Part shown: in pieces, positions 11,078 through 31,021 of the stretch
Position numbering within the stretch: the first letter of the stretch is position 1
Layout of the letters: every line of letters starts with the position of its first letter
Origin: Marinobacterium sediminicola
GTDB taxonomy: Bacteria; Pseudomonadota; Gammaproteobacteria; Pseudomonadales; Balneatricaceae
Assembly (NCBI RefSeq): GCF_022343685.1
Contig: NZ_CP092123.1
Location: 2,356,001-2,420,000 of the forward strand
Direction: 5' to 3'
Length of the DNA stretch: 64,000 bases
The notes under the pieces: generated by a model
What the model was told of the DNA's origin: nothing
Database searches by the model: none
Seen by the model: only the letters and a program-made list of their open reading frames with translations
Program-made: the position numbers and the translations under genes

Positions 11078-13984
<2,907 letters not shown>

Positions 13985-13999
13985 GCATACGCTTGCAAC

Positions 14000-14036
14000 G
14001 GGAGTGCCTTCAGATGAAGCGCACTCCCTTAATTTT
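14000..14036 (+). terminator. gcvP: Rho-independent terminator of gcvP
   Basis: GGGAGTGC (14000-14007) pairs with GCACTCCC (14021-14028) around a 13-base loop and is followed by TTAATTTT. It lies 16 bases after the gcvP stop and separates it from the convergent SPOR gene. Confidence 0.8.
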
Positions 14037-14049
14037 CACGCTGTAAACC

Positions 14050-15288
14050 TCAGCGTTTAACGACGAAACACCCCTGCTGCCGTGCTTTAAGCTGTTCGCA
14101 CAGTTCAATGGCCGCCCCTCGATCGGCAAACCCGGTTGCCAGTATCTTGTAGGCTCCCCTCAGGTGTTTGACCTCAACACTATGACCATCCAGCACAGAC
14201 TCATGCTTGCGCACTAAGCGTAAGGCCAGTGCCTGCGCTGCGTTTTCCTCCAGCACCGATGCCATCTGTACGCTGAAAGGCGAAGGCAGGGTTATATCCT
14301 GCTGTACCGGTTCACTCGTATCCGACTTTGGGGTCGCAAGAGAACGTTGCAGTTCAGGCTGATCCTGTGCCTGTACCTTCGACTCTGCGGCCGGCTCAGA
14401 GACTTCAGTCAGGCCCGGCTCAACCTTAGGCTCTGAGGTTGGTTCAGATTCAGGCTCACTGGCGGGTTCCGATGCGACTGGCGCTTCAGGTTCCTGAGAA
14501 GCCGCAGGCATTGGCTCCTGCTCGACCTCAGGTATGGGTTCAGGCGAAGGCTCAACTGTAGCAACGGGTTCAGGCTCGGACTGAATCCCGGAATTCATGT
14601 CAGCGACCGGCTCGGGGTTGTCTGCAGTGGATACCTCAGGCTCAGTACTGCTCGGAGGCAAGGAGGCTGCGTCACCATCCGAAGACGGAACAGGAGCCGG
14701 GCGAAGGACACTGACTGCGGCGGCATTGCCGCTCGACATGAGTTGGCGCATGCGTTCAGCCAATCGAGCGGGGCTCACCGGTTCGATCTCTTCAGATAAC
14801 AGCGCTTCTGCCTTGATGGCAGGAGCATGACCGCTACGGGCAGCCAGCGACATCCATGCCTGAGCATCCAGCGGATTGGGTTCCTGTTGCTTCAAATAGA
14901 GAATCGCCAGGCGATACTGCGCTTCCGGTAGCCCCTGACGTGCGGCCTGAAGCCACCAGTGAGCACTTTGAGTGGCGTCAGGCCCACCTGCTTCCAGATA
15001 TTTCAGGGTTCCCAGCTTCAGCTGTGCCTGCGCGTGTCCCAGTTCAGCCGCTTCGAGGTAGTACTTGCCGGCGCGCTGCATATCCTTATCGACGCCGGTT
15101 CCCTTGGCGTAAGCCTGAGCCAGACGAAACATCGCCTCAGCATCTCCCTGCTCGGCGCGCTGACTCAAGCTCTCAAGCTGGGTAACGTGCGGTTCATCCG
15201 ACGCACCCGCCAAAGGCGGCTCGGCAAAGATCAAACCCATCCCAAAAAAGAGTCCGCATCCTGCTCTCAGAACCTTATTCCTAACCAA
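14050..15288 (-). CDS. Sel1-repeat protein with proline/glutamate-rich linker and C-terminal SPOR domain
   Basis: Predicted exported or periplasmic protein of 412 residues. A hydrophobic N-terminal signal (about 1-29) is followed by Sel1-like repeats (SQRAEQGDAEAMFRLAQAYA, then YYLEAAELGHAQAQLKLG and WWLQAARQGLPEAQYRLA). The middle, roughly 200-330, is a low-complexity Pro/Glu/Ser spacer. The last 75 residues (FSVQMASVLEENAAQALALR onward) form a SPOR domain, which in known proteins binds denuded septal peptidoglycan. This suggests a cell-wall or division-site role, but no specific function can be named. It is convergent with gcvP and divergent from rfaH. Confidence 0.85.
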   Translation of the reverse strand: MVRNKVLRAGCGLFFGMGLIFAEPPLAGASDEPHVTQLESLSQRAEQGDAEAMFRLAQAYAKGTGVDKDMQRAGKYYLEAAELGHAQAQLKLGTLKYLEAGGPDATQSAHWWLQAARQGLPEAQYRLAILYLKQQEPNPLDAQAWMSLAARSGHAPAIKAEALLSEEIEPVSPARLAERMRQLMSSGNAAAVSVLRPAPVPSSDGDAASLPPSSTEPEVSTADNPEPVADMNSGIQSEPEPVATVEPSPEPIPEVEQEPMPAASQEPEAPVASEPASEPESEPTSEPKVEPGLTEVSEPAAESKVQAQDQPELQRSLATPKSDTSEPVQQDITLPSPFSVQMASVLEENAAQALALRLVRKHESVLDGHSVEVKHLRGAYKILATGFADRGAAIELCEQLKARQQGCFVVKR

Positions 15289-15473
15289 GCCATCCCCCGA
15301 AAACTGCTACTGAAAATGCTTTTCCTTCAGGCTCTTACCGCCCAGTCATCACAATAAAGCAACTATAGAGGCCTGGGCAACGGCAATGTGACAATTGCGC
15401 CTATAGCCCATCATCCGTACCGGATGGACAGATGCGGCAACGCCCCTTAGTCTGTCGTCTCAATGCGGGGCCG

Positions 15474-15501
15474 TGTTCGCTTGCCCCTTCCCTGCTATAC
15501 T
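15474..15501 (+). promoter_or_regulatory. rfaH: Likely sigma70 promoter of rfaH (extended -10)
   Basis: TGCTATACT at 15493-15501 is an extended -10 element with a good TATACT hexamer. The -35 (TGTTCG at 15474-15479, 16-bp spacer) is poor, as is common with extended -10 promoters. The start codon lies 30 bp downstream. Confidence 0.5.
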
Positions 15502-15530
15502 GCGCGCCCAAGCAAGAGCATGTCAGCCGT

Positions 15531-16025
15531 ATGACCGATTTCAGATGGTATGTAGTGCAGTCCAAGCCTGGTCAGGCCGAAAAGGCTGCCCATGAGTTAC
15601 AGAATCAGGGATTTGAAGTGTTTCTGCCCCAGGTTCGGGTGGAGAAGCTCAGACGTGGCAAGCGCGTTGAGCTGGAAGAGCCCCTGTTTCCAGGCTATCT
15701 GTTTATCGAACTGTCTGAAGTTGCCAGCAACTGGCGCCCCATCCGTTCCACACGTGGAGTCGCGAGGATGATCACCTTTGGTGACAAACCCGCCGTAGTA
15801 CCCGACGATGTGGTTGAACAGCTGCGTGACAACCTCCGTCAAAGGGGGGAGCTCCAATCGCTCAAACCCAACGAGCCGGTCAGGATCACAGAAGGCCCCT
15901 TCGCCAACCTCAATGCGGTATTCGCCGAATACGACGGCGAAAAAAGAGCCTTTCTGCTATTGGAATTGCTGGGGCAATGGCAACGGTTATCGCTGCCGCT
16001 CAGCGCGGTGAAAAAAATCGACTGA
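15531..16025 (+). CDS. rfaH: Transcription antitermination factor RfaH
   Basis: NusG paralogue that binds RNA polymerase paused at ops sites and promotes expression of long operons. The N-terminal NGN domain starts FRWYVVQSKPGQAEKAA and includes RGKRVELEEPLFPGYLFIEL; the C-terminal KOW-like domain has RITEGPFANLNAVFAEYDGE and ends SAVKKID. With the ATG at 15531 the protein has 164 residues, almost the same as E. coli RfaH (162), and not the longer upstream frame from 15432. It stands alone, not in a sec-nusG-rpl context, which supports RfaH over NusG. I did not find an ops element in the window. Confidence 0.9.
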   Translation: MTDFRWYVVQSKPGQAEKAAHELQNQGFEVFLPQVRVEKLRRGKRVELEEPLFPGYLFIELSEVASNWRPIRSTRGVARMITFGDKPAVVPDDVVEQLRDNLRQRGELQSLKPNEPVRITEGPFANLNAVFAEYDGEKRAFLLLELLGQWQRLSLPLSAVKKID

Positions 16026-16026
16026 G

Positions 16027-16575
16027 TCAGTGCTCCGGCCACAAAGACTGCGGCTCGATCATCAGCGAATTTTCGGCATCGCTGACCCACACCTGACCAT
16101 CTTCAATGGTGCATTGAAAATGCATGCCGCGTTTAACCAGTTCCGTAAGCTGCTGACTCTGATCGACAGGAATCCGCAACACCTGCAGATTGTTGAAACG
16201 ATGCAACTGGCCCCTGATGCCTTCCCACCAGGGCGTTACCGCCTGCTCGGAACCATACACCAGGATCAACACTTGCTCTGAGCGACCACAGGCCTTGCGG
16301 ATACGCTTGTCGCTGGGCAAGCCCACATCAATCCAGAGCTCGATCTCGCCACCATAGTTTTTCAGCCAGAGGTCCGGCTCATCCTCAACACACAACCCGC
16401 GTGTAAACTCCAGCCGCTCGTCTGCCCGCAGCATGAATGCCAGCAGACGCATCATCAACCGCTCTTCGGTTTCAGACGGATGTTGCGCCAGGGTGTGGCT
16501 GTAATCGGCGTAATGATGACGATCCATATCCGCCAATTGCAGATGCACTTTATGGACAGTTGAGTTTTGGGCCAT
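16027..16575 (-). CDS. yaeQ: YaeQ family protein
   Basis: About 182 residues matching YaeQ closely: HKVHLQLADMDRHHYADYS at the N-terminus, LAQHPSETEERLMMRLLAF, then FTRGLCVEDEPDLWLKN and LWIDVGLPSDKRIRKACG. YaeQ has a PD-(D/E)XK nuclease-like fold and was first noted as a multicopy compensator of RfaH loss in E. coli, although that link was later doubted. Here it lies tail to tail with rfaH, one base apart. The ATG at 16575 is preferred over the start five codons earlier because it aligns with family N-termini. Biochemical function unknown. Confidence 0.9.
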   Translation of the reverse strand: MAQNSTVHKVHLQLADMDRHHYADYSHTLAQHPSETEERLMMRLLAFMLRADERLEFTRGLCVEDEPDLWLKNYGGEIELWIDVGLPSDKRIRKACGRSEQVLILVYGSEQAVTPWWEGIRGQLHRFNNLQVLRIPVDQSQQLTELVKRGMHFQCTIEDGQVWVSDAENSLMIEPQSLWPEH

Positions 16576-16648: not shown

Positions 16649-17362
16649 TCACGCCATTTCTGCCGGTTCGCAAAAAACATAGCCCCGGCCACGCACGGCC
16701 TTGATGGGGCTTGAACGAGAGTGCTTTTGGATTTTCTTGCGCAAGCGACTCATGATCTGCTCAAGACGACGCTCATCATACTGAAGGTAGTCCTCCCCCA
16801 AACTTTCAACCAGCCTGCTCCGCGGAGCATGGGCCGGATAAGAGTGGAAGAGTTGTTGAACAATACTACACTCGGCCTGCGTCAGCAGGATGGAGTGATC
16901 GGCATCCGGTACCAGCAACAGCTGCCTGACGGGATCTAACTGCCAATAATCCTCTGTCTGGCTTTCGCCTCTTCTATCAGAACTGTAAAGATCGAGCCTT
17001 CGAAGCAACGCCTTCAGGTGTGCAAGCAGCTCAGCAAACTCAAAGGGTTTCGTCAGGTATACATCAGCCCCTTTGTCGAGGCCATTGATACGATTATCAA
17101 GACTCGCCCTGGCGGTCAGCATGATAATGCCTATGTTGCTTTTACCGCTCACCAGCTCTTGCGCCACCTTAAAGCCGTCGCTGTCCGGAAGTCCGATATC
17201 AAGAATGACGACATCAAAAGGTATGCGTTTATGCTGATTGAGAAAAGGTGCGGCTTCACTGAAATCTTGCAGCTCGAAGCCTTCTTCTTCCAGCAGGAAG
17301 CTAAGCTCTTCTCGCAGATCCGCATTATCTTCCACCAATGCGATGCGGTGATATTTGTTCAT
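16649..17362 (-). CDS. OmpR-type response regulator linked to the large-protein export cluster
   Basis: Receiver plus winged-helix DNA-binding domain, 237 residues. The receiver has the acidic pair in LVEDNADLREE, the phospho-Asp in VVILDIGLPDSDGF, Thr in IIMLTARAS and Lys in VYLTKPFEF. The C-terminal part (LSRLRKK-type recognition helix, here EQIMSRLRKKIQKHSR, then IKAVRGRGYVF) is a typical trans_reg_C domain. Its start overlaps the histidine kinase stop by 4 bases (ATGA), so the two are a cognate pair. Being last in the minus-strand cluster, it likely regulates the export genes upstream; target sites are unknown. Confidence 0.92.
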   Translation of the reverse strand: MNKYHRIALVEDNADLREELSFLLEEEGFELQDFSEAAPFLNQHKRIPFDVVILDIGLPDSDGFKVAQELVSGKSNIGIIMLTARASLDNRINGLDKGADVYLTKPFEFAELLAHLKALLRRLDLYSSDRRGESQTEDYWQLDPVRQLLLVPDADHSILLTQAECSIVQQLFHSYPAHAPRSRLVESLGEDYLQYDERRLEQIMSRLRKKIQKHSRSSPIKAVRGRGYVFCEPAEMA

Positions 17363-19302
17363 TTTCCAAATCCTTGCAAACGAACACGAATCTCGGTGCC
17401 GGACTTGCCGGTTTCAACATCTATCCAGCCATTAAAACGCTCTACCGCTTCTTTAACGACAAAAAGCCCCAAACCCAAGCCGGGAACGGCGGCATTTTCA
17501 TTCGCCCGGAAATGACGATCAAACATATGTTCGCATACATATTGATCCATTCCCGGCCCCTTGTCTCGCACTATTAGTTCAAGATTATGCCCGCTTATGG
17601 ATATGTAAACGGAAACGTCAGTATCACCCGGGCTGTATTTGAGTGCGTTGTCGATCAGGTTGCGCATCAACACACCCAGAAACTCAGCCGGCATCAAACC
17701 GTTAAAGACAAGTGGCTGATCACTCCCGTGGATCTTGATACGCTCACGTGCAGCTGAGGGAAACTCGTTCAACACGTCAACGAGCACTGGAATCACGTCG
17801 TACTGCTGGGGCTTGGTGCCGGATGACTCAAACTCACCACTGCTTCGCAAAATACTCATCTGCAACAGCAGATTGATTCGAGTGACGGCATCTCGAATGC
17901 GCTGATAACGCTTGCCATGCTGCTCACCATCCGTGCGTTTGCTCTCCAGCTTTTGCAGCGACTGCGCCGAGGTATCGATCACCGCCAGAGGGGTCCGCAC
18001 TTCGTGTGAGAACATGTCCATGAATAGCTCATGGGATAAACGTAACGACCGTTCCAGACCCGCCTCCTTTCTGGATTCCTCTGCCGCTCGTTTTGCAGCC
18101 CGTATGAGTGCCTCGGACTTACGAACGGAAAACATCAGGATGAAGTGGAGAGACAACTGAAAAGACAGGATCATCAAGGGGGCAATATAGGTCGTTCCGA
18201 CCGTAACAGGCATATAGCCGATCGTGTAGAGGCAGTTTACCGCCACAAAAATACCGAAGATGAAGAAACCTCCCGCACGAAATCGCTGTTCCGAATCCAT
18301 CTGGCGCCAGCTCAACAGCAGGGGTACTGACACAACCAGCGGGAATGACGACACATAGGTGTTAACCACCGACATGGCAACGGCATATTGGTTCTGATAG
18401 GCAAATATCATCCCCGTTAATGCCAGGCCGATCCCGATCAGAAACAACCCATTGACCCAACGCGATCCAATGTATTGAAAGTTCAACATCCGCTGGAAAA
18501 ACACAAACGCCAACAGGCCGGTGAACAGCACGCTGAACTGCATCAGCAGATTTTGCTCGGCCTCAGTCATCCCGGGCACCAGGTCACGCATGAAGCCATT
18601 GCTGAACAATATCGTCACCAGCATGGAGGCTTCATAGGTCACGAAGTATATGAACAACGACCGCCTTAACCAGACACCGTTGAGCAGATTGATCAGCAAC
18701 ACCATGAGCAGGATTCCGATCAGAATACCCTCGCTCATGACACGGCCCTCGATCGCGGCATCGATTCGGTCCCCCGGGACCGCCTGTATCAACAGCACGG
18801 AGGTACTGCTGGTCTCCAGCCTCACCAGCAGTTCGACTGGGCCTTCCGGCAAACGGGTGCCCACAAAAGGCAAGCGGTGGTGCAAGTCATGCTCGGGATC
18901 TGCCACCAGGTCACCGGCTGACAACACCTGCAACAGCTCACCCTGCTGAATCACGTGATACTCAACACGATCGAGATAGACCGGACTGCTGAAGAAACCC
19001 CATAACTCAGGTGATGCCGGGCTACGCTCCAGCTGCACATACACCCAGAACACCGAAGTTGAATAGCCCTCACCCACACCATAGGACAGCTGCTTGAAAC
19101 GTCCGGCCCGTTGCGCATCCAACGCTTCTTCCCATGTCAGTTCATGATTGGGGTCTTCCAGTATGCTCAGCTGGCCTTTATCCAGAGCCAACATCTTCTG
19201 ATCCAATAACACCGGAGTGGCTGCGGCAGCAGAAAGCGACCCCATCAACAACAGCAGCACGGCAACCAGCCCGATGCCGGCTTTTTTCACTGAGACGATC
19301 AA
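17359..19302 (-). CDS. 7TMR-DISM sensor histidine kinase
   Basis: 647 residues. A signal peptide (about 1-28) precedes a periplasmic DISMED2-type beta domain (about 40-180) with FWVYVQLERSPASPELWGFF. Seven membrane helices follow (about 190-390), the 7TMR-DISM module thought to sense extracellular, often carbohydrate-like, ligands. The kinase part has the H box FSHEVRTPLAVIDTSAQSL, the N box NLIDNALKYSPGD, and G boxes RDKGPGMD and GLGLGLFVVKEAVERF. The start overlaps the upstream protease-adaptor gene by 4 bases (ATGA) and the stop overlaps the regulator by 4, so the sensor is translationally tied to the export genes. The signal is unknown. Confidence 0.92.
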   Translation of the reverse strand: MIVSVKKAGIGLVAVLLLLMGSLSAAAATPVLLDQKMLALDKGQLSILEDPNHELTWEEALDAQRAGRFKQLSYGVGEGYSTSVFWVYVQLERSPASPELWGFFSSPVYLDRVEYHVIQQGELLQVLSAGDLVADPEHDLHHRLPFVGTRLPEGPVELLVRLETSSTSVLLIQAVPGDRIDAAIEGRVMSEGILIGILLMVLLINLLNGVWLRRSLFIYFVTYEASMLVTILFSNGFMRDLVPGMTEAEQNLLMQFSVLFTGLLAFVFFQRMLNFQYIGSRWVNGLFLIGIGLALTGMIFAYQNQYAVAMSVVNTYVSSFPLVVSVPLLLSWRQMDSEQRFRAGGFFIFGIFVAVNCLYTIGYMPVTVGTTYIAPLMILSFQLSLHFILMFSVRKSEALIRAAKRAAEESRKEAGLERSLRLSHELFMDMFSHEVRTPLAVIDTSAQSLQKLESKRTDGEQHGKRYQRIRDAVTRINLLLQMSILRSSGEFESSGTKPQQYDVIPVLVDVLNEFPSAARERIKIHGSDQPLVFNGLMPAEFLGVLMRNLIDNALKYSPGDTDVSVYISISGHNLELIVRDKGPGMDQYVCEHMFDRHFRANENAAVPGLGLGLFVVKEAVERFNGWIDVETGKSGTEIRVRLQGFGK

Positions 19303-21410
19303 AACCCTGACTCTCGTATGAACAGTGCTACCACTCGCTCAAGCTGATAGAGCAGCGCGCTGCGGGAATCCCCTTCAACCACCATCATGCCCGTCATGCG
19401 TGTTCCTTGCAGTGAGTCGCTGATCGGCTCCTCAGGCATCAGCTGTATGCGGTAGTGAGCGGCCTCGGGAACCAGCCGTTCATCCTGACGCCTGACCGCC
19501 ACGGGTCCGCCGGCCTCGGAGCCCAGTTCGGGATAGGGCAATACCGGCACCGCGGTGATGTCGATTCGCGAAACACTGGCCGGAATAGCCGAATGTTCGC
19601 CATTGATGGCAATGAACATCCCCTGCTGCCCCACGGCCAGCAGGTTCAAGTCGCGCTCGTTCACCAGCCCCTCAAAAAGCATTCGCTCGGGCGCGATCAA
19701 TGTCATCAACGCCTGATCACGGCCGATCCATTGCCCCGATGCCAGGAGTTCACGATCACTGACCCGGCCACTGAATGGCGCTCGAACGGCCAGCATGCGC
19801 GCACGTTTTTCCAGCCCCTGTAACTGCTCATTGAGCTGTCGTCTGCGCTCCTGGTTCACCGCCTGGGCGGCCTTTTCTTCCAGAGACGCGCTCTGACGTG
19901 ACAACTTCAGCTCGACCAACTGCAGCTGGTCACGGGTCTGTGTCAGCTGTTGTTCCAGGTCCGGCGACGCCATCTCCAGCAGAACCTGACCGGCCTCCAC
20001 GCTGTCGCCGGCCTGTACGTAGACGGCCTTGATGCGGCCGTCTTCGGTTGCAAACAGCGTCTGGCTGGATTCTGCCCGCAGGACGGCAGGCACTTGAACG
20101 CTGGTCGAAAAGGGCAACAGCAACCCAAGCAGAACCAGCACCGGTAAAGACCAGCAGGCAATACGCGCAGGTGTCCAATTAAAATCAGCCCGGCGCTCTC
20201 GCCAGACCTGCAGTTCCTTGAAAATCGGCATCACAATGAACCAGAGTATTTCAACCACAAAAAGAATAATGCCCAGCACCTTGAAGAACAGGTGATAGAC
20301 CAGCAACGCAATCCCCAGAAACAGGAAAAAGCGGTACAGCCAGGTGCCCCAGGCATAGAGCGTCAACAGACGCGCTCGGCGGCGGGGCATGGGTTCAGGC
20401 AGCGGATCATCCAACCCCCATAGCCAACGCCGCAAACGCCAGCGTCCCAGGGCAAATGCACGCTGCTGCAGGTTCTCGACGCCCAACAGGTCGGAAAAGG
20501 CGTAATAGCCGTCAAAACGCAGAAAGGGGCTGATATTGACCAGTACCGACGTCACCCAACTGGTCGTGGCGACAAAGAACGCCGCACTGCGCAGCGCGCC
20601 ATCCGGCAGGATGCCCCACAGAAAAGTAGCCACCAGTGCAAGGTACAGCTCGGTCTTTACCCCGGCCGTGACGATCTGCAAACGCTGCCGACGCGAGCGC
20701 AGCTTCCAGGCATCCGTTGTATCCGTGTAGAGCACCGGAAACATGACAAGAAACGCGACCCCCATTGAGGCAACACGGCACCCCAACCGCTGTGAAACCA
20801 GGGCGTGGCCCAGCTCATGGGCGCTTTTCACCAGCACCAGTGTCAGGCCGTACAGCAACATCCCTTCGAGACTGAAAAAGTAGAGAAAAGTACTGCTGAA
20901 CGTGTCCCACTGCCGCAGGACCAGCACGCCACCCAGCAGCCCCATCAGCAGTAACAACCGATGCACACTGTTGCTGAACAACCAGTTCAGGCGCGGGCCG
21001 ACACGTTGCAGCCAGGGGTCCGGGCGTAACAACGGGATTCGAATGAACAGATAGTTGTGCAGCAACCACTGCCAGACGCTTTTTTGCTGCCCTTTGCGTT
21101 GACTCAGGAAGTGATCACAGGCCCCTTTTGATCGCGCCAGTACCAGGTTGTTGGCGATCAGAAAGTCGATGAAAGCCTTGATCTCAGCCTCCTCGTACGC
21201 CAGATCCCGGCCCGCCAGATGGGCCTGCATCTCTTCCAGTGTGTGCCCTGGCTGCCAATGACGGATGAGAGCCAGCGCATCCTCGGCCAGGGTAAAATAG
21301 CGATTGCGCACGCGGTCATGCAGCAGCCACCGTGGCGCGCCGTCTTCATCATGCGAGCCCGGCAGCAGCTTCAGATCCTGACGGATGGCCGGTAAGCGAA
21401 CCTCTACCAT
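19299..21410 (-). CDS. PqqD-like / M50 site-2-type metalloprotease / HlyD-like adaptor fusion
   Basis: About 703 membrane-bound residues combining three parts. Residues ~10-95 resemble a PqqD-like winged-helix (RNRYFTLAEDALALIRHW, then HTLEEMQAHL), a fold used by peptide-modifying systems to grip leader peptides. The membrane part carries the zinc-protease motif SAHELGHALV (HExxH near 198-202) and a second motif NISPFLRFDGYYAFSD whose Asp completes the M50 site, so it looks active. From about 415 on, a membrane helix is followed by an HlyD-like region with lipoyl halves (GRIKAVYVQAGDSVEAGQVL) and coiled coil. It overlaps the GAF-HlyD gene by 7 bases; a GTG at 21419 is an alternative start. 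I infer processing and/or export of the giant protein encoded upstream. Confidence 0.82.
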   Translation of the reverse strand: MVEVRLPAIRQDLKLLPGSHDEDGAPRWLLHDRVRNRYFTLAEDALALIRHWQPGHTLEEMQAHLAGRDLAYEEAEIKAFIDFLIANNLVLARSKGACDHFLSQRKGQQKSVWQWLLHNYLFIRIPLLRPDPWLQRVGPRLNWLFSNSVHRLLLLMGLLGGVLVLRQWDTFSSTFLYFFSLEGMLLYGLTLVLVKSAHELGHALVSQRLGCRVASMGVAFLVMFPVLYTDTTDAWKLRSRRQRLQIVTAGVKTELYLALVATFLWGILPDGALRSAAFFVATTSWVTSVLVNISPFLRFDGYYAFSDLLGVENLQQRAFALGRWRLRRWLWGLDDPLPEPMPRRRARLLTLYAWGTWLYRFFLFLGIALLVYHLFFKVLGIILFVVEILWFIVMPIFKELQVWRERRADFNWTPARIACWSLPVLVLLGLLLPFSTSVQVPAVLRAESSQTLFATEDGRIKAVYVQAGDSVEAGQVLLEMASPDLEQQLTQTRDQLQLVELKLSRQSASLEEKAAQAVNQERRRQLNEQLQGLEKRARMLAVRAPFSGRVSDRELLASGQWIGRDQALMTLIAPERMLFEGLVNERDLNLLAVGQQGMFIAINGEHSAIPASVSRIDITAVPVLPYPELGSEAGGPVAVRRQDERLVPEAAHYRIQLMPEEPISDSLQGTRMTGMMVVEGDSRSALLYQLERVVALFIRESGF

Positions 21411-22744
21411 CCCAGCCACTGCCTCAGTGACGTGATCGGGCGACGGAACAGATAAAAGAACAGGCTCACCCGGTCACCATACACCTTTGCCGTACCCCGC
21501 AAGCCGATACGTGGCGACAGCCGTTCACCGGGCTCGTCCAGCTGGGCGATCAGCCGATAGGCGAACTGCTGATCCGGTGTGGGTCTTGGGGTATAGCCTG
21601 CATGGCTGAGAATAGCCGACCAGGCGTTCAAGGGATCGTTATCCAAAAACACCCTCACCTCGGCACCGGGCAATAGCGTTATCGAGTCCTTAACCGGCAA
21701 CATCACCTCGAACTCCACCTGCTCGGGGTTGGCAACCAGCATGATCCGCTCCCCGACCCGCACGGGTCGCCCCTTCCAGTCATCCGGGTTGTCCAGCACG
21801 GCCACTCCCGGCTGTTCTGCCTTGATTGTTGACCGTTCGAGACGCTCACGGGCCAGTTGCCATTCAGCCTCCTTGAGCCTGACCTGTGCCTCCAGCTCGG
21901 CCAGTCGCGCCTTTTGCTTGGGGTCCATGAAACCGCTCTGCTGCACGGTTTTCAATTCGGCCTGAGCCACCGACAGCATCTGCCGGGCCACCGCTTCACG
22001 GCTGGCCAGCTCACTATCCTCAAGATACGCCAGGGGATCGCCGGGCTTGACGGTTTCATTGGGCTGCACCGCCACGCGCTTGATCGCGCCCTCCAATGGC
22101 GCCGCAATCACCAACGGATTTTTGGCAACGACCTCCACCGGAGCCAGTGTGCTCAGACGAACAGGCCATGCCATCAACACCACCAGCGCCGCAAGTGCCG
22201 CCCACAGGACTCTGCGCTGCCTGAGCCGCGACCACAGCCCCTTGAACGGCTGATGCCTGCGCAACGCAAACAGGGCATGACCGGCCGTTGCCGACAGGTG
22301 CTGGGCAATGCCGCGCTCTGCCTCGCTCCAGGCCTTGTCCCGAAGCAGTAGCAGAACGCCCACTGCCTCGTTATCACGCGCTTCCACCACCAAAGGCTGC
22401 CACAGCAGCTGGTCGGGCAGTTCCAGGGCTCGCCACTCGGCCGCCACCTCGGCGGGCAGGTCGGCCGGTCCTATGCATTGCTGGCCGGCATTGTCTGCGG
22501 CAACCACTGCCTTGCCCAGCCGTTCGGCCCAGCTGATGAAGGGAGAGGTGTAATCCACCGTCGGCAGGTCGGAAACGGCGACCACATTGAGTTGATTGAG
22601 GGCTTCACCTTCCAGGAGGATTGCCTGAGTGTACGGCAGACACTTGTGTGTCTGGTTAACCAGGGTATAAAACAACTGCGCAAGGCTGGATGCCTTGCGC
22701 AGTTGTTGCTCCAGCCCCAAAAGGGCCGCAACGGTTTCGCTCAC
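21404..22744 (-). CDS. GAF domain - membrane helix - HlyD-like adaptor protein
   Basis: 446 residues. The N-terminal ~150 residues look like a GAF domain (SSLAQLFYTLVNQTHKCLPY, then GVLLLLRDKAWSEAERGIAQ), predicted cytoplasmic. One membrane helix (VLWAALAALVVLMAWPV, about 178-195) leads to a periplasmic membrane-fusion part with two lipoyl-like halves (EGAIKRVAVQPNETVKPGDP), a coiled-coil hairpin (about 240-300) and a beta-barrel region. A cytoplasmic small-molecule-type sensor fused to an adaptor is unusual. The stop overlaps the protease-adaptor start; the start is 10 bases from the end of the giant gene. The stated functions come from domains only. Confidence 0.83.
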   Translation of the reverse strand: MSETVAALLGLEQQLRKASSLAQLFYTLVNQTHKCLPYTQAILLEGEALNQLNVVAVSDLPTVDYTSPFISWAERLGKAVVAADNAGQQCIGPADLPAEVAAEWRALELPDQLLWQPLVVEARDNEAVGVLLLLRDKAWSEAERGIAQHLSATAGHALFALRRHQPFKGLWSRLRQRRVLWAALAALVVLMAWPVRLSTLAPVEVVAKNPLVIAAPLEGAIKRVAVQPNETVKPGDPLAYLEDSELASREAVARQMLSVAQAELKTVQQSGFMDPKQKARLAELEAQVRLKEAEWQLARERLERSTIKAEQPGVAVLDNPDDWKGRPVRVGERIMLVANPEQVEFEVMLPVKDSITLLPGAEVRVFLDNDPLNAWSAILSHAGYTPRPTPDQQFAYRLIAQLDEPGERLSPRIGLRGTAKVYGDRVSLFFYLFRRPITSLRQWLGW

Positions 22745-22753
22745 AAAAACTCC

Positions 22754-25700
22754 TTATGCGGACTTCAACATCGCCATCAGACGTGTTCCATATTGGTCGC
22801 GATTCGCCAACTCGTTCTCCAGCTGCTCCGCGAAAGGTCTGAACCCGGACTCTTTCAGCTGCAGAGCATTGTTATCGCTAAGGTTATCACCGGTCTGCGG
22901 ATTAAACAGCTGGGGCAGATCAAGTTTCAGTTCAAGGACGCGCACAGTGCCATCGCTGCCAATTGCGGTGATGCGGATCACCACTTCCTGCTCACCCGCC
23001 GGGGGTTCGATCAGTTTTACCGAACCGGTGGCCGGATCGAGCGTGATCCACTCCGGCAGTGCTTCACCGTTGCCAAGGCTGGCGGTGTAGAACTGCGAAT
23101 TGGCATCAAGGCTGGTGTCTTGCACCACTACCAGCACCTCGCCCGCCGCCACTCGGTCGATCCCTACCACCTGCAACGACACCGTGCTGAACGCCTGCTG
23201 CTGGTCGTCACTGAACAGTACCTGGCCATCGCTGTTGACCTGCACATCCACCGAGGCGCGGGTGGTGGTGTTGCCATCGGTGTTGACCGACTGCACCACC
23301 AGCGCGCCCGGCTCGGCCATGATGATGATCTCATCGCCGCCCGTGCTGCCGCCCGTATCGCCGTCGCTCTCACTCTCAACACCGCTGCCGCTGGTGTCGA
23401 TTTCAGTGCCGCTGTCGTCACCGCCATCATCCATATAGCCACTGCCATCGGTGGGGTCACCGGTGCCACCTTCATCGATCACCCCCTCCGGCAGCTCGCC
23501 GCCACCCTCATCAGAGACGGTACCGGGATCATTGCTGGGGGGCTGGGGGGGCGGTGGTGTATCGCCACCGGGGTTGGCCTCTTCCTGTACCATCGCATTG
23601 ACCGTCAGCACGAAGCTGCGGGTGACACTGGCACCCTCGCTGTCCGTGGCGGTGAGGGTCACCGTAAACCGGCCCGGTTCAGACGGCTTGCCTTCAATCA
23701 CGCCGGTTTCAGGGTCATAGATCAGCCCTTTGGGCAGGCCGGTGATGGTGAAGTCGAGGTCTTCCCGACTCAACACGCTGTCTTTATCGCTGAACAGCGG
23801 CGACACATCCAGCCGATAGTCGCTGCTCATCAGAGTGATTGTCTCGTCATCGGTGAGCTGGACCGAGGTCGCCTCCGGCGCATCGTTGCTGCCAATCAAG
23901 GTGATGGTGACCACTTCGGAGGCGGTGGCACCATCGGTGTCCTCTACCGTGACCGTGTAGCTGAAGGTGACGGTGTCGCCGGCGTTGAGGAAGTCGAGAT
24001 CCGCAGCATCGAGTTGATAGTGCCAGGCCACCTGCCCGTTGTGCGGCAAGTCAGCACCACTGGTCGTGAACGCCGCGACCAGACGACTGGCCAGCCCCGC
24101 ATCCAAGCCATCGACGACACTGTTGTCGTTGCGCCGCCAGACCGGATCCTGATTGACGCTAAAGGTGATCTGCTGGGTATTGTTGAGGTCGTGATCGGTA
24201 AAGCTCACCACGCCGATCTGCACCAGACTCTGCGCCGCCGCATCGACCGCCTCACTGAACGGCTCCGCGGCCGTGACCGCAATCGTTGGGGTATCGTTGC
24301 TGCCATTGATGGTAAAGGTGATCACTGCATCTGCGGCGGCATCCTGACTGTCCCGTGCGGTGACGGTGTAGCTGAAGGTGAGGGTCTCGCCCTTGGCGAG
24401 GAAGTCGAGATCCGCTCCGGTGACGTTGTAACGCCAATCGACGCTGCTCGGTGCCGCCGCATCCTGGGTGGTCGCAATCGAGAAACCGCTCTCCAATAAG
24501 GTGACCAGTGCTGCATCCAGAGTGCCGCCACTCCACGCCATATCCGAATTTGAGGCAAAGGTGATATCGACCAGATCGGTGGTGTCGAGATCTCGGAACG
24601 CCACCACGCCGGTTTCAGTCAGCGCCTGCGCGCTGGAGTCACCCGCCACTTCGCTCAACGCTTCGGCGGCCTCTACGGTGATGGTCGGTGCATCATTAGT
24701 GCCAGTAATAGTGAACAGGACCTGCTGAGTCACGGGGACGTCAGCACTGTCGGTGGCGGTAACGGTGTAGCTGAAGGTGAGGGTTTCACCGCTGGCGAGG
24801 AAGTCGAGGTCGATACCGGCCACATCGTAAGACCAATCCACACTTCCCGGTGCCTCAGCGTTAAGAGTATCCGCAATGGTGAAGCCATTGATCAGCGCGG
24901 CCGCTACACCCGTATCCAGCGGCTCGGCAGTGGTGGCACCACTCCAGCTAATATCGCCGTTATCGGCAAAGGTGATATCGATCCGGTCGTTGGTATCGAG
25001 ATCCCCAAAGTTGACCACACCACTGTCACTCAACACCTGTGTGCTGGAGTCACCCGCCACTTCGGTGATCGCCTCGGCGGCCTCTACCGAGAGGGTCGGC
25101 GCATCGTTGGTGCCGGTGAGGGTAACGCGGAGGGTATCCGTGCTCTCAACACCCTGCTCGTCGGTCAGGGTGAAGGTGTAGCTGAAGGTGATGGTCTCAC
25201 CCTTGGCCAGGAAATCGAGGTTCGCATCGGTGACACTGTAACTCCAGGCAATTGTGCCCGGTGCCGCCGCACTGCTGGTGGTCGGAATCGATAGCCCCGC
25301 TACCAGAGCGGCGGCGAGATCCGTGTCCAGAGTACCGCCACTCCAGTCGATATCCTCATTGCTCACAAACGTGATATCGATCAGATCGGTCGTGTCCAGA
25401 TCCGCAAATTCAACCGTGCCACTCTCTGTCAGGGGCTGTGCACTGGAGTCACCGACCACTTCGCTCAACGCCTCGGCGGCTTCAACGCTGATGGTCGGTG
25501 CATCGTTAGTGCCGGTGATGGTGAAGGTCACCTGCTGGGTGGCGGTGGCGTCGGCACTGTCGGTAGCCGTCACGGTGTAGCCGAAGGTGAGAGTTTCGCC
25601 CGCGGCCAGAAAGTCGAGATTGATACTGGCCACGTCGAAGGACCACTCCAGACTGCTGCCCGGCAGCGCATCAATCGTTTCGGGAATGGAGAAACCCGCA

Positions 25701-26563
25701 ATCAGCGCGTCGTTAATCGCCCCGCTCAGCGGCTCCTCGGCAGTGGCGCCGCTCCAGTCCACCGCGCCATCGCTGGCAAAGGTGATGTCAATGCGGTCGG
25801 TCGTGTCGAGGTCGTTGAAAACCACCACGCCGCTGTCACTCAAGGCCTGGCCACTGGAGTCGCCCTCCACTTCGGTGATCCCGTCGGCGGCCTCCAGCGC
25901 CAGAATCGGCGCATCGTTGGTGCCGGTGATGGTCAGGGTGAGGAATTTGGAGGTCGAGGCACCGGCAAGGTCTGTTGCACTGATCTCGTACGAGAGGGTT
26001 AGGGTCTCACCCTCCGCAAGGAAATCGAGGTCAGCCCCCTGCATATTGTACTGCCAGTTGGCAGTGCCAGCGGCCGTCGCTGACGTCGGCAGAGTGGTGG
26101 TGAAGCCGCTAAGCAAATGAGCGGCCTGAACGCTGTCCAACGATCCACCACTCCAAACAACATTGGATGAAGAGCGTTGTAACGACAGGGTATCGCCGGA
26201 AGCGTAGTCAAAATCGACATCATTGAAGCTGATTTTTCCGCTGCTGCTCACCCCGCTTGCGGCCTCGTCCATGGCAATGGAGGCACCGGCATCGGCGGTA
26301 ACCAGCAGCTCAGGAGCATCATTGACGGGTGTCACCCGAAAGGTCAGTTCATAAAAACTCTCCGGGTAGTGATTGGCCAGATCATAGTGCCACCACTCCT
26401 CTGGTCTGAGCATATAACTAAGACCAGAAACACTTCGATCGTCTACAAAAAATTTGACCGTAACCTCGCCATTGAAATTCTCATTCGGGATAAACTTCAC
26501 CCCACCTGAATCCATATCCCAGGTTGTGAAGTCATAAAACGACCCTAACTCAACCAACCCAAC
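22754..26563 (-). pseudogene. C-terminal part of giant VCBS-repeat surface protein, cut off by an IS
   Basis: About 1267 residues of open frame, continuing the gene that begins at 28626. The frame has no native start: it runs upstream into the IS and hits a stop there. A short N-terminal stretch is followed by six VCBS-type repeats of ~137 residues, each ending with LDFLAxGETLTFSYTVTA and TITGTNDAP. Then comes a cadherin/Ig-like domain (GLPKGLIYDPETGVIEGKP), a Pro/Gly/Asp-rich linker and a C-terminal region ending YGTRLMAMLKSA. I see no RTX nonapeptides, LPXTG or PEP-CTERM. Removing the IS would rejoin both parts in frame (...FFLQDG + LVELGSF...) to give ~1560 residues. Likely surface adhesin or matrix protein. 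Confidence 0.85.
23880..26320 (-). repeat. Six tandem ~411-bp units encoding VCBS repeats
   Basis: The plus-strand signature around gcatcgttggtgccggtga recurs near 25910, 25500, 25095, 24690, 24290 and 23885, with spacing of about 400-411 bp; a more diverged unit starts near 26310. Units 3 to 5 are most alike in protein and DNA, pointing to recent duplication or gene conversion. Such arrays are prone to copy-number change and misassembly. Confidence 0.85.
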
Positions 26564-26634
26564 GGTAATCCCCCCGAAAAGTAGCAGTGCTCAAAAGTAG
26601 AATTTTCTCGTAATGTATACGCAGGAGGTTCTGC

Positions 26635-26901
26635 ATGAAGAAGTCCCGATACACCGACAGCCAGATCATGGCGATACTGAAACAAGCGGAAGCAGGTACC
26701 CCAGTTCCCGAACTATGTCGTGAACATGGGATGAGCAGCGCCACATTTTATAAGTGGCGGGCGAAATACGGCGGCATGGATGCTTCGTTGATGGCTCGGC
26801 TGAAAGAGCTTGAAGATGAAAACCGCCGCCTGAAGAAAATGTATGCTGAAGAGCGGCTGAAGGCCGAGATCGTCCAGGAAGCACTGCAAAAAAAGTGGTG
26901 A
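26635..26901 (+). CDS. IS3-family transposase OrfA
   Basis: 88 residues with a helix-turn-helix that binds the IS ends ([20 protein letters not shown], then [20 protein letters not shown]) and a leucine-zipper-like C-terminus ([20 protein letters not shown]). This layout is characteristic of the IS407 group. A good ribosome site (GGAGGTTCTGC) precedes the ATG. The frame ends just after an A AAA AAG heptamer, so a fraction of ribosomes should shift -1 into OrfB to make the complete OrfAB transposase. Confidence 0.93.
26889..26895 (+). other. Programmed -1 frameshift site A_AAA_AAG
   Basis: In the OrfA frame the codons read CAA AAA AAG TGG TGA, so the heptamer A AAA AAG is correctly phased for tandem slippage. 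OrfB is in the -1 frame and overlaps OrfA by 7 bases. This is the usual IS3-family arrangement for making the OrfAB fusion. Confidence 0.8.
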
Positions 26902-27710
26902 AGCCGTCTCGGCGCAAGGAGATGGCACAGACCTATGTTGCTTCCCGTGGCGTCAGTATCCGGCTTGCCTGTGCTGCCTTTGGTATCAGCGAATCCTGCT
27001 ACCGGTACCAACCCAAGCTGTCATCGGAGAATGCTGAGATTGCAGATTGGTTGATCCGCCTGACTGAACAGGATTCAGACTGGGGCTTTGGTATTTGCTT
27101 TGACTACCTGCGTAATGTGAAAGGCTTCGGCTGGAACCATAAGCGCGTATACCGTATCTACTGTGAACTTGCATTGAATCTGCGCATACGGCCTCGGCGG
27201 CGCCTAAAGCGCCATAAGCCGGAGCCGTTGAAACAGCCCCTGCGACGCAACCAGGTGTGGTCGATCGACTTCATGCACGATCAGCTGTCGGATGGCAGAA
27301 GCTACCGGCTGCTCAATGTGATCGATGACTACCGGCGAGAAGGACTGGCAATAGAAGCAGGCTTCTCTCTGCCATCCATGCGAGTGATACGCACCCTGTC
27401 TCAGTTGATTGAGTGGAGGGGAAAACCATCGCACATTCGCTGTGACAACGGCCCAGAATTCATCAGTCACGAATTCACCAACTGGGCTCGTAAACATGAC
27501 ATCCGGATTGAGTATATTCAACCCGGCAAGCCTCAACAGAACGCTTACATCGAGCGTCACAATCGAACGCTCCGCTACAGCTGGGTCAGTAAGCATCTAT
27601 TCGAAACACTGGAGGACGTTCAGGATTATGCAACGCAGTGGCTCTGGTTTTACAATCATGAGCGGCCGCACAAAGCCAATGGTGGCCAGCCACCACTAAA
27701 AGTGGCTTAG
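26895..27710 (+). CDS. IS3-family transposase OrfB (DDE integrase domain)
   Basis: 271 residues. An N-terminal HTH_21-like part ([20 protein letters not shown]) is followed by the rve integrase core: first Asp in [14 protein letters not shown], second Asp in [11 protein letters not shown], and the Glu in [15 protein letters not shown] with the usual 35-residue spacing. The DDE set is intact and the C-terminus [15 protein letters not shown] is typical, so the element is probably still active. It is most likely produced as an OrfAB fusion by frameshifting; an independent GTG start at 26895 lacks a convincing ribosome site. Confidence 0.93.
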
Positions 27711-27744
27711 CCTCTACTTTTGGCATCAGCTAAAAAGGGGAGGA

Positions 27745-28626
27745 TTACCCATCTTGGAGAAAGAAATTATCGGCCGAGGTACGGCCGCTCACATCAAACT
27801 TAATATACCCTTCACGATAGTCATTACCGCCAGAAAAGGTGATACCAGAGTCGATCACTATTGGCTGACCATTTTCAACATAGGTCACCTCTGAAACGGA
27901 TGCGTTCACCGTTATTGCCAACACCCCTTCAAAACTAACCGCCGCCAGCTCATCGGTCTCAATCAAGCCACTTTCGGCCTCCAGCTCCCAGTCACCGCCC
28001 AGACCCGCCGAACCGGTGAGGTCTTCCGAAGCCGCCACATCGGCCTGGGTCAGTTCAGCCACAGAGTCGATAAAACTCTGGCCTTCACTGTCTGCCCCCA
28101 CGTAGCAGCCGTAGAGCATCAGGTCGCCGTCTTCCGTCAGGGATTCACCCAGCGCGGACAAAAGTTGAGCATTGGCATCCAGGTTTTGACCATTCAGCGT
28201 CAGGCTACCCAGCTTCAACTCACCCACATCCCCATGCGAAAACAGGTGGATCGCATCAATGCCGGTCTGCCCCTGCAAGGCTGCGACGATCTGCTCCAGA
28301 CCGTTTTCGCTGCCATCAATCAGGATGACTTCGACGTTGTCACCCAGCCCATCGATCAGGCTCTGATAGTCGTCAACCGAGGTATCGACAAAGGCAACCT
28401 CGCGGCGGTTGCCGGGTTCGTTTCCGGTCGGCGCAGGCGCGGCAAAGTGAACGCTCTGATCCGCGGACTCGGTATGCACCGCTTCATCCTGATAGGCCAC
28501 ATCGGTGGTCATCTCAGCGGTGGTGGCAACAGCGGCACCATCCAGCAGGATACGGGGTTCCAACGCCGTAATCAGCGGCTTGCGACGAAAACGAATCGGG
28601 GAGGTGGGGGTCGGTTTTTTCATCAT
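27745..28626 (-). pseudogene. N-terminal part of giant surface protein: LEPR-type signal and DUF4347 domain
   Basis: 293 residues ending at a TAA supplied by the IS. The basic N-terminus leads to LEPRILLDGAA (residues 22-32), the LEPR-XLL-type motif found at the start of many large repeat proteins and suspected to be a sorting signal. There is no classical Sec signal peptide. Residues ~75-220 form a DUF4347 domain with IHLFSHGDVGELKLG (H131) and DLMLYGCYVG (C174); a His in SHG and a Cys after a hydrophobic strand is the layout of caspase/gingipain-like clan CD proteases. The ribosome site AAGGGAT lies before the ATG. It follows the adaptor gene by 50 bp in the same operon. Protease activity is inference. 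Confidence 0.85.
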
Positions 28627-28676
28627 TTTTATCCCTTTAAGACACCGGGGGCCTGAGCCCTGAACAAGGTGCAGGT

Positions 28677-29405
28677 TTACTGAGCATTGGGCGCGTTAAA
28701 AACCGCTGTTGCGCTCATGCCGGGTATCAGTTGTGTATCCTGAGACAAACTTGCCCGCAGCAGGACGGTCTGGCTGACAGCGTCGATTGCCGGAATAATG
28801 GCACTAACCTGAGCGACAGCTGCCTCATCGTGCCCATCCACTTGCAGTTGCAACGACTGACCAGTTTCAAGCCAGCTCAACCAGCCGGCAGGCACCACAA
28901 TTTCAGCTTCAAGCTGGCGGTCGCCGACAATCTCGATCAGCTCCTGTTGCTGACGGATATTTTCATGCGCATTGACTCTGACGCCGACTACGCGGCCATC
29001 CCAGGGCGCCTTGATCGTGCAACGCTGTGTGTTGAGTCTGGCAATATTCAATTCTGCCAGGGACTGGGCATATTCCGACTGGGCCAGCGCCACATCAACC
29101 TCACCGATGGAGTTGAAGGAGCGAAGCTCTCGTGCGTTGTCCCGCTTGATTTTGGCGGCACGAACTTCGGCTGATACCTTCTCGGCCTGAGCCTTGTAGA
29201 GCGCACAATCAAGCTCGACCAGTGGGTCCCCCTTGGCAAAGGCCTCACCGGCACGAACCGGCAGACGTTCAACCCTGGCAGCCAACTCACCGGACAGGAC
29301 GGCCCGGTCCAACGCCTTGATGACGGCTCTGGCTTCATACTCAGCCAGAGCCGTTGCCGGCAGCAGCAACGCCACTGCCAGCGAACTCAGGAGCCGACGG
29401 GACAT
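28677..29405 (-). CDS. Periplasmic membrane-fusion (HlyD/RND-type) adaptor without membrane anchor
   Basis: 242 residues with a cleavable-looking signal (SLAVALLLPATALAEYEA, end near 21) and no later membrane helix or lipobox, so it should be soluble in the periplasm. The lipoyl-like halves are LAARVERLPVRAGEAFAKGD and TIKAPWDGRVVGVRVNAHEN, separated by a short coiled coil (~70-115); a beta-barrel part follows. It is small for the family. Its start shares one base with the stop of the TolC-like gene (TGATG), pointing to a joint complex with it. It probably bridges the TolC-like channel and the HlyD parts of the two downstream membrane proteins. Confidence 0.85.
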   Translation of the reverse strand: MSRRLLSSLAVALLLPATALAEYEARAVIKALDRAVLSGELAARVERLPVRAGEAFAKGDPLVELDCALYKAQAEKVSAEVRAAKIKRDNARELRSFNSIGEVDVALAQSEYAQSLAELNIARLNTQRCTIKAPWDGRVVGVRVNAHENIRQQQELIEIVGDRQLEAEIVVPAGWLSWLETGQSLQLQVDGHDEAAVAQVSAIIPAIDAVSQTVLLRASLSQDTQLIPGMSATAVFNAPNAQ

Positions 29406-31021
29406 CAGCTGACCTCACCTTCGGCGTCAGCTTCGACAGCGCCTTCAACCTCGGCTTCGGCTGCAACTTCAGCTTCGGCGGCTGCCTGTTCGGTTTCCAG
29501 CTCTTCCTGCTGCTGAGTCACCTGTTCCATCTGGCCGCTCTGCCACTGAGCAAAGCGCTCACCAATGCGTTCACTCAACTCTTGCAGAGAGACCTGGTTG
29601 TAGTCTTCAGGCAGCAGATCCATGCCCATGGTCACGTAAATGCGGCCATAGCTGTTCTGCAAATCTGCATAGGCCACATCGCGGCGCAGCTCGGCCAGCA
29701 CGGTGTTGAGTGACTCGCGGATCAAGTCCAGCTTGGAAGTCCGCTTGAGACGGGCACTGTTGCGCGTCTGTTCGCTGATACGCTCGGCCACACTCAGGTA
29801 TTCCCCGGCCAGATCAAAGCTTTTACGGGCCTGTTCGTAGCGGATGCGGGACAGGTGCACCTGCGTCAGCACTGCCATGGAGGCTGCCAGACGCTGTTCA
29901 TTGGCCAGCACCTCACGGGTTTTCGCCATGCGACGCTCGGCACCGATTTTAAATACATCGAACAGGTTCCAGCTGATCTGGGCTCCCATGCTGGTCCAGT
30001 CCTGATTCAGCAGGTACTCATTGCTGTCTTCGTATGCGCCCGCCGTCAGGTTGATGCCCGGCAGCAGTCCGAGCATTGCGGCTTTGGTTTCGGCTGCAGA
30101 GATACGCTTCTGGTAATGGGTTTCAACCAGTTCCGGGCGCTGCTGCAGCGCCAGCTCTTCCATCTGTTCCAGCTCAACGGAGAGTTCCGGCACGGTGAAG
30201 GCAGGGCTATCGACATCGGCCAGGGCAAATACCGTACCCGGCTTAAGCCCCATCAGCGCCGCCAGCTCGGTCTTGGCACCCATCAGATCCTGACGCAGTG
30301 ATTGCAAGGCACGCAGAATATCCAGCAACTCACGCTGATAGTACAGAGCCTCCAGTGGTGACTGCAGACGCTTGGTTTCAACCTGACGCGAGTCTTTCAG
30401 CGCATCACTCGCCTGGTCGATCAGCGGATTGATTTTGGTCAGCAAACGCTCGGCCGACACGGCACGCCAGTAGGCCGCGCGCACATCCTGAGTGATGTTG
30501 TGCACCACCTTGCGCTCACGTTCCTTGGTGATCAGGTAGCGGTCGGCATGCTGTTTGGCACGCACGTATGAGAGGCCAAAGTCGAGGATATTCCAGGTAA
30601 ACGCGATATCCTGGGTATCACGTTCCTTGTCCTGAGACACCGAGTAAGAGGGATTCAGCGGTAGAGCATCCGGCTCGCCATCGGTAAAGCTTACACTGGC
30701 AGAAGCCGCATACTCACTACGCTTGGAATACCCGGCTGAAGCGGTCAGATTGGGCAGCATCTCATGCTGAGCCAGCTCAACCTGTCCCTGCGCCAACGCA
30801 GCTTCCAGCGCTTTGAGCTTCTTGTCGCGGTTGTTCAGCACAGCACGTGCAATGGCCTCGTCCAGCGAAACGGCAGACTCAAGAGCCTGCTCCTGAGCCA
30901 ACAGCTGGATATCGGCCTGGGCGGCGGCACTGATGTACTGTTGTGTAATGGTCTGAGGAGTAACGGAACAGCCACTGATGATGGCAGCGATAGCTGTTGC
31001 AAGTAGGGGCTTCTTGTACAT
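29405..31021 (-). CDS. TolC-family outer-membrane channel lipoprotein
   Basis: 538 residues. The signal peptide ends in a lipobox IISGC (Cys18), so it is probably lipid-anchored, as in OprM-type channels. Two OEP repeats are visible: SLDEAIARAVLNNRDKKLKA with TWNILDFGLSYVRAKQHADR, and QRPELVETHYQKRISAAETK with SWNLFDVFKIGAERRMAKTR; the G-x-x-LP (MLPNLTASAGY, LLPGINLTAG) segments match too. The last ~45 residues are an unusual Glu/Ala-rich acidic tail, not part of the channel fold, perhaps periplasmic. As first gene of the cluster it supplies the exit duct. The 235-bp gap upstream, shared with mgtE, must hold the promoters. Confidence 0.9.
   Translation of the reverse strand: MYKKPLLATAIAAIISGCSVTPQTITQQYISAAAQADIQLLAQEQALESAVSLDEAIARAVLNNRDKKLKALEAALAQGQVELAQHEMLPNLTASAGYSKRSEYAASASVSFTDGEPDALPLNPSYSVSQDKERDTQDIAFTWNILDFGLSYVRAKQHADRYLITKERERKVVHNITQDVRAAYWRAVSAERLLTKINPLIDQASDALKDSRQVETKRLQSPLEALYYQRELLDILRALQSLRQDLMGAKTELAALMGLKPGTVFALADVDSPAFTVPELSVELEQMEELALQQRPELVETHYQKRISAAETKAAMLGLLPGINLTAGAYEDSNEYLLNQDWTSMGAQISWNLFDVFKIGAERRMAKTREVLANEQRLAASMAVLTQVHLSRIRYEQARKSFDLAGEYLSVAERISEQTRNSARLKRTSKLDLIRESLNTVLAELRRDVAYADLQNSYGRIYVTMGMDLLPEDYNQVSLQELSERIGERFAQWQSGQMEQVTQQQEELETEQAAAEAEVAAEAEVEGAVEADAEGEVS

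Follow-up and report, generated by a model that had tools for sequence, protein, structure and literature searches.

The gene cluster described here is probably the SecA-less (type 1) form of an exporter that is widespread among Gram-negative bacteria and reserved for giant proteins beginning with an LEPR-XLL segment, a reading to which we assign a probability of about 0.76 on the basis of comparative sequence analysis. The cluster lies in a window of 64,000 nucleotides (i.e., the whole stretch of DNA analyzed) from the complete 3.55-Mb genome of Marinobacterium sediminicola and comprises, in this order on the minus strand, genes for a TolC-like lipoprotein, an HlyD adaptor, an LEPR-XLL/DUF4347 giant, a GAF-like-HlyD protein, a PqqD-like/M50-HlyD fusion, a kinase, and a regulator (Table 1). 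LEPR-XLL giants rank among the longest bacterial proteins, and many proteobacteria have conserved the module, which is also carried by some E. coli plasmids. If our reading is true, it would constitute a Gram-negative secretion route for very large proteins without an ABC motor or a canonical signal peptide.

A related locus with a secondary SecA_DEAD protein, M50-HlyD, GAF-HlyD, HlyD, and sometimes an OEP had already been described by Kamneva, Poudel and Ward (2015, PLoS One; PMC4452313), who proposed SecA as its ATPase and the M50 protein as its pore, named no substrate, and called its biological role "completely unknown". Neither LEPR nor DUF4347 occurs in the text of that paper, the one citing paper that we found was on an unrelated topic, and our search of the literature on LEPR-XLL, DUF4347, and M50/HlyD/giant combinations (with preprints and most subscription journals outside its reach) otherwise returned passing mentions only. 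The SecA version without a substrate is therefore known; new here are a family of substrates, a candidate signal at their N-terminus, and a clade without SecA to which the window belongs. The 2015 locus thereby gains a likely substrate in the LEPR-XLL giants, together with a signal that is probably N-terminal and a protein that probably recognizes it. Like that ABC-free locus, a second locus of the same genome (locus B, see below) has the full set of components plus a SecA paralogue, whereas the window type lacks the secondary SecA_DEAD protein and belongs to a separate, well-supported clade.

Table 1. Features of the cluster, with positions counted from the first letter of the window.
Feature	Position	Strand	Evidence
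TolC-like outer-membrane channel, lipoprotein signal ISGC	29405..31021	-	Pfam OEP 2.7e-40
Periplasmic HlyD/RND-type adaptor, cleavable-type signal peptide MSRRLLSSLAVALLLPATALA	28677..29405	-	Pfam HlyD_3 2.8e-20; NCBIfam RND_mfp above cut-off
LEPR-XLL/DUF4347 giant, N-terminal part, ended early by IS	27745..28626	-	DUF4347 6.4e-54; LEPR-8K 19.8 bits
LEPR-XLL motif LEPRILLD, proposed core of the export signal (D = type-1 form)	28540..28563	-	
DUF4347 domain, predicted caspase/legumain-like fold, conserved His131/Cys174	27952..28398	-	
IS3-family insertion element, 1,186 bp, inside the giant gene	26564..27749	+	
Giant, C-terminal part: VCBS/He_PIG/cadherin-like repeats; GFRPFAEQL...LMAML C-terminal element	22754..26590	-	
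GAF-like - transmembrane - HlyD protein	21404..22744	-	Pfam HlyD_3; GAF via profile homology to type-2 relatives
PqqD-like - M50 (HELGH ... SPFLRFDGY) - HlyD fusion	19299..21419	-	Pfam M50 and HlyD; N-terminal homology to PqqD-positive relatives
7TMR-DISM sensor histidine kinase, lineage-specific neighbor	17359..19302	-	
OmpR-family response regulator, lineage-specific neighbor	16649..17362	-	

All seven genes that a first-pass annotation of this DNA had listed are present in the order given there, and they overlap at 4 of the 6 junctions (TolC/adaptor by 1 nt, GAF-HlyD/M50 by 16 nt, and both M50/kinase and kinase/regulator by 4 nt), with gaps of 50 nt between adaptor and giant and of 9 nt between giant and GAF-HlyD. 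The same annotation had taken all seven for a single unit, but the kinase and regulator lie outside the conserved module; since none but close relatives (e.g., L016, L020, and L021) have the pair in this position, we rejected the two as parts of the machine and regard them as accessory. Its statement that an ABC transporter is missing was borne out, with no such gene present in the cluster. The cluster thus resembles type I secretion systems (HlyB-HlyD-TolC; LapBCE-LapA) in its TolC-like channel, its HlyD adaptors, and a giant, repeat-bearing, adhesin-like substrate, but differs from them by the missing ABC ATPase, by a conserved putative signal that is N-terminal, and by the extra M50-HlyD and GAF-HlyD proteins. 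Similarly, the HlyD halves resemble MacA, MexA, and EmrA of the tripartite pumps (MacAB-TolC, EmrAB, RND), but the cluster, with its 3 HlyD-bearing proteins, lacks an RND, MFS, or ABC inner-membrane pump. A gene for RfaH (window positions 15432-16025, plus strand; 167 bits against a cut-off of 144.5) lies near the cluster, and we considered RfaH control via ops sites for this reason and discarded it in view of the lack of ops site enrichment. Scans for promoters and terminators gave no signal exceeding that of shuffled sequences, and a phage origin was rejected with zero phage matches.

The giant of the window carries both the LEPR-type N-terminus and the VCBS repeats that had been ascribed to it and exceeds the curated cut-off of LEPR-XLL (NF012209; 19.8 versus 17 bits) and the gathering score of DUF4347 (PF14252; 182.6 versus 24.6 bits), but its gene is interrupted by an IS3-family element that separates 293 N-terminal codons from the C-terminal repeat part. 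The first stretch of the C-terminal open reading frame (26564-26590) falls within the end of this element, and we found no clear target-site duplication flanking it. Six essentially identical copies across the genome indicate that the element has been recently active. Searching the genome with the M50-HlyD protein of the window revealed two further full-length copies in paralogous loci, both of which are intact in contrast to the broken substrate gene of the window. Locus A (~1,296,700-1,310,900) has the same order of TolC, HlyD, giant, GAF-HlyD, and M50-HlyD, and its giant forms an unbroken frame of 2,761 codons with the N-terminal motif LEQRLMFDGAA and without DUF4347. Locus B (2447521-2503375; L003/L004/L014) is of type 2 and encodes a DUF4347/LEPR giant in an open frame of 10,907 codons together with a TolC-like protein with an AMIN domain, GAF-HlyD, PqqD-M50-HlyD, an HlyD adaptor, and a second SecA; the housekeeping SecA of the genome is encoded elsewhere. 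A TpsB/TpsA pair is nested between giant and GAF-HlyD at locus B.

Rather than a lack of linkage between these protein families, which would have spoken against a shared function, we found the opposite. A scan of GTDB genomes with an M50-HlyD alignment confirmed 374 relatives, and among the best 80 of these 374 loci GAF-HlyD adjoins M50-HlyD in 78, so that the gene arrangement is far beyond chance. The HlyD adaptor was present in 67 and TolC in 64 of these 80 loci, of which 68 have at least 3.5 kb and 57 at least 5.5 kb of upstream sequence, respectively; the two genes were thus seen in nearly every locus with enough space, and in most loci the TolC homologue sits next to the module or on its upstream side. 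No consistent ABC gene was found among the same 80 loci (7 of them have flanking ABC genes of no consistent kind), nor did we find an ABC transporter shown to export an LEPR protein in relatives. Repeat-rich giants typically precede TolC, follow M50, or sit in between adaptor and GAF-HlyD, and those giant starts that are within reach at the loci bear LEPRxMFDxAA-like segments. Among the hosts are Marinobacterium, Pectobacterium, Pseudomonas cichorii, Azospirillum (type 1), Thalassospira, Magnetococcales, and one Nitrospirales genome, while Methylobacterium extorquens AM1, which the 2015 paper names, is a host of type 2. In a tree of M50-HlyD proteins, type 1 and type 2 fall on separate sides of a branch with 100/100 support.

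Among 5,426 complete E. coli genomes, 24 also matched the TolC-to-M50 stretch, and in 22 of these the match covered at least 80% of its length, with four chromosomal places and 21 on plasmids; the whole module is likewise present on a Kosakonia plasmid. Both E. coli and Kosakonia giants that we checked (2/2) start with LESRQLFDGA or LEPRMLFDGA. These plasmid modules had been found via M50-HlyD alone, outside the data that defined the pattern, and their LEPR-like giants therefore provide confirmation beyond those data. One example (L239, NZ_CP104683.1) combines a complete type-1 module with an Ig-like giant of 4,457 residues on E. coli plasmids, where its annotation goes no further than HlyD, TolC, and Ig-like proteins.

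A strong association of LEPR-XLL and DUF4347 proteins with M50-HlyD, the first-pass annotation's own suggested check, was seen in 369 gammaproteobacterial genomes drawn evenly across the class. Among these genomes, 57 encode M50-HlyD, 48 DUF4347, and 35 LEPR-XLL; M50-HlyD is present in 31 of the 35 LEPR-XLL genomes (odds ratio 92, p = 4e-25) and in 36 of the 48 with DUF4347 (odds ratio 43, p = 6e-25) in statistics that ignore kinship. They are conservative insofar as one genome (G123) was scored as lacking M50-HlyD, though its module is cut by a contig end, and this was left uncorrected. In at least 16 of the 31 shared genomes, the LEPR giant directly adjoins or extends to the M50-HlyD gene, and several others end at a contig edge. 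No M50-HlyD was detected in G213, G076, G245, and G286, which have LEPR-like giants. Another genome (G240) encodes five LEPR-XLL giants, the longest open frame having 14,112 residues, along with two type-2 modules with SecA2. The dedicated ABC-less export system for LEPR-XLL proteins that had been proposed from the first reading is thus upheld in its linkage, its co-occurrence, and the way LEPR tracks the machine, and export itself is what we infer from these.

The N-termini of the giants look like they carry the export signal. Among DUF4347 proteins with a readable N-terminus, LEPR was found in 29 of 31 from genomes with M50-HlyD versus 2 of 8 from genomes without it (Fisher p = 2e-4), and one of these two exceptions comes from a genome that is 85% complete. 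The six LEPR-less DUF4347 proteins of the latter genomes have a Sec-like signal peptide in three cases and neither kind of signal in the other three. Furthermore, the residue that follows the arginine and its hydrophobic stretch is D in 18 of 18 type-1 loci and S (once A) in 15 of 15 type-2 loci, a count that includes, for L016, a further giant adjoining a type-2 TolC of its own; this difference also holds between the paralogous loci within the genome of the window, and since it coincides with a single deep 100/100 split it may reflect one old event plus paralogues. Such covariation with the machine, the apparent swap of signals in genomes without it, and the lack of a type I ABC in many genomes that have it (see below) all argue for the LEPR segment as a candidate export signal. 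At the other end of the protein, a short element of [FL]xxQL followed by an L-rich end occurs in 25 of 32 type-1 giants versus ~10% of other windows, using a pattern that was picked after viewing the sequences.

The domains of the machine are compatible with recognition and processing of such a substrate. Both M50/site-2 protease motifs are present in the window, HExxH is intact in all 99 M50-HlyD proteins compared, and the second motif ending in FDGY is kept in nearly all. An AlphaFold model of M50-HlyD (mean pLDDT 86) predicts an N-terminal region of three strands followed by three helices, then a membrane part made of helices, and finally a C-terminal region resembling HlyD/MacA. Of the labels given by the first-pass annotation, GAF holds and PqqD-like may hold by homology to type-2 relatives, though Pfam detected neither domain in the window proteins: PqqD was called in 0 of 51 type-1 versus 3 of 9 type-2 M50-HlyD proteins, with N-termini that align in hhalign as part of an alignment over almost the whole length, and GAF was called in 8 of 8 type-2 proteins, whose profile alignment to the window protein is the basis on which we call the latter GAF-like. 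For DUF4347, prediction is confident only for about residues 72-200, where the core adopts a caspase/legumain-like fold (best solved Foldseek match 9qpe_G at 6e-4, with legumain and caspases at ~1e-3), and among homologues 94% retain His131 and 96% Cys174, the His and Cys each coming after successive strands; modeled fold and His/Cys pair together would place the domain among the clan CD cysteine proteases. Tce1 (PA0256, PDB 9QPE) shares the same Pfam DUF4347 family, the caspase/cysteine-protease-like fold, and the His/Cys pair, but it is a small type VI cargo and putative cysteine-protease effector, whereas DUF4347 of the window follows the LEPR segment of a giant. The "processing" that had been attributed to the system hence finds an intact metalloprotease site and a protease-like domain in the substrate, with cleavage as such being putative.

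These domains could also be read as those of an exporter for a small peptide or another molecule, with the giant as an independent surface protein that merely shares its regulation. In RiPP systems, peptide leaders are recognized by PqqD domains, and the NCBIfam model closest to the M50 part is that of the daptide metalloprotease, albeit at 148 bits against a cut-off of 300. However, it is the LEPR giants that are conserved at the loci, where an unsystematic look revealed no conserved small precursor gene, and the N-terminal motif of the giants varies by machine clade, so that we give this idea the least credit of all readings considered.

Under the dedicated exporter that we favor, the substrates would be giant, repeat-rich, adhesin-like proteins starting with an LEPR-XLL segment, and this segment would dock onto the N-terminal PqqD-like domain of M50-HlyD. 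The entry at the inner membrane would consist of the M50 part, which is polytopic, and of GAF-HlyD, which spans the membrane once, and the periplasmic HlyD halves together with the soluble HlyD adaptor may bridge to the TolC-like lipoprotein to create a single conduit out of the cell. The intact M50 zinc site probably cuts the N-terminal region of the giant, and the caspase-like DUF4347 beside the signal may contribute self-processing. In type 2, the dedicated truncated SecA would be the likely motor, and the energy of type 1 may be borrowed from the housekeeping SecA or the proton-motive force.

The M50 and GAF adaptors, which the first-pass annotation had suggested as an engine or gate at the inner membrane, are at most a putative engine. 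Of 59 genomes searched, about 22 have a truncated SecA2 as seen in type 2, which adjoins the type-2 M50-HlyD in nearly all of them, while none was found in those of the 59 genomes that have only type 1 or no M50-HlyD. All 15 aligned copies have kept the nucleotide-binding and preprotein-binding parts and end around residue 705 in the numbering of the housekeeping protein; they thus lack what we take to be the wing domain, the two-helix finger, and the zinc tail. In SecA, the two-helix finger and the wing domain work with SecY. A more far-reaching reading, held at slightly below even odds, is that type 1 reads LEPR via PqqD-like/M50-HlyD and moves the giant from the cytoplasm to the outside without an ABC or dedicated SecA, and that type 2 does likewise with a SecA devoid of the parts that contact SecY. 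A two-step route would differ in the inner-membrane step only, with SecYEG and the housekeeping SecA taking the giant across the inner membrane and the module merely processing it and carrying it from the periplasm to the outside. This alternative appears unlikely yet deserves serious consideration: the SecA paralogue of type-2 loci, the role as ATPase that the authors of the 2015 study proposed for SecA (PMC4452313), and a Methylobacter locus with secA directly 3' of the type-1 module (L084:12358-15081; possibly a coincidence) would fit it, but the hydrophobicity of LEPR N-termini is generally below that of Sec signals (though the two overlap to some extent), some DUF4347 proteins of genomes without the machine bear Sec-like signals instead, and the type-2 SecA has neither two-helix finger nor wing domain. 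The Methylobacter SecA itself is full length (907 aa) with a zinc tail and hence a housekeeping protein, which led us to reject it as a type-2 SecA.

Finally, the TolC and HlyD parts could serve a classical type I ABC encoded elsewhere, with the M50 and GAF proteins as accessories. The parts of the module are indeed type I or RND-like, one LEPR-XLL giant of Vibrio is reported to have a C-terminal RTX region that would fit the classical route (PMC10868602), and the genome of the window encodes one true type I ABC, of the LssB type, at ~2,845 kb, which might act in trans here. However, in nearly all of the best 80 of 374 loci the module stands by itself without an ABC, and with the LssB model no ABC above ~335 bits (an MsbA-like level; MsbA of the window's genome scores 295 bits) was found in 20 of 38 M50-HlyD genomes. 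For this reason, a classical ABC acting in trans is unlikely in general, and we consider it improbable as an explanation of the module, hardly ahead of small-peptide export. The LssB-type ABC is a fit for a LapA-retention giant of 2,515 codons in the same genome (L005:6124-13668), which it probably serves and which provides an internal contrast to the LEPR giants. The same genome also encodes two ~1,000-aa proteins with strong bacterial-cadherin repeats and GKGxG-type tails (L007:4163-7081 and 13447-16533) that are unlinked to the module.
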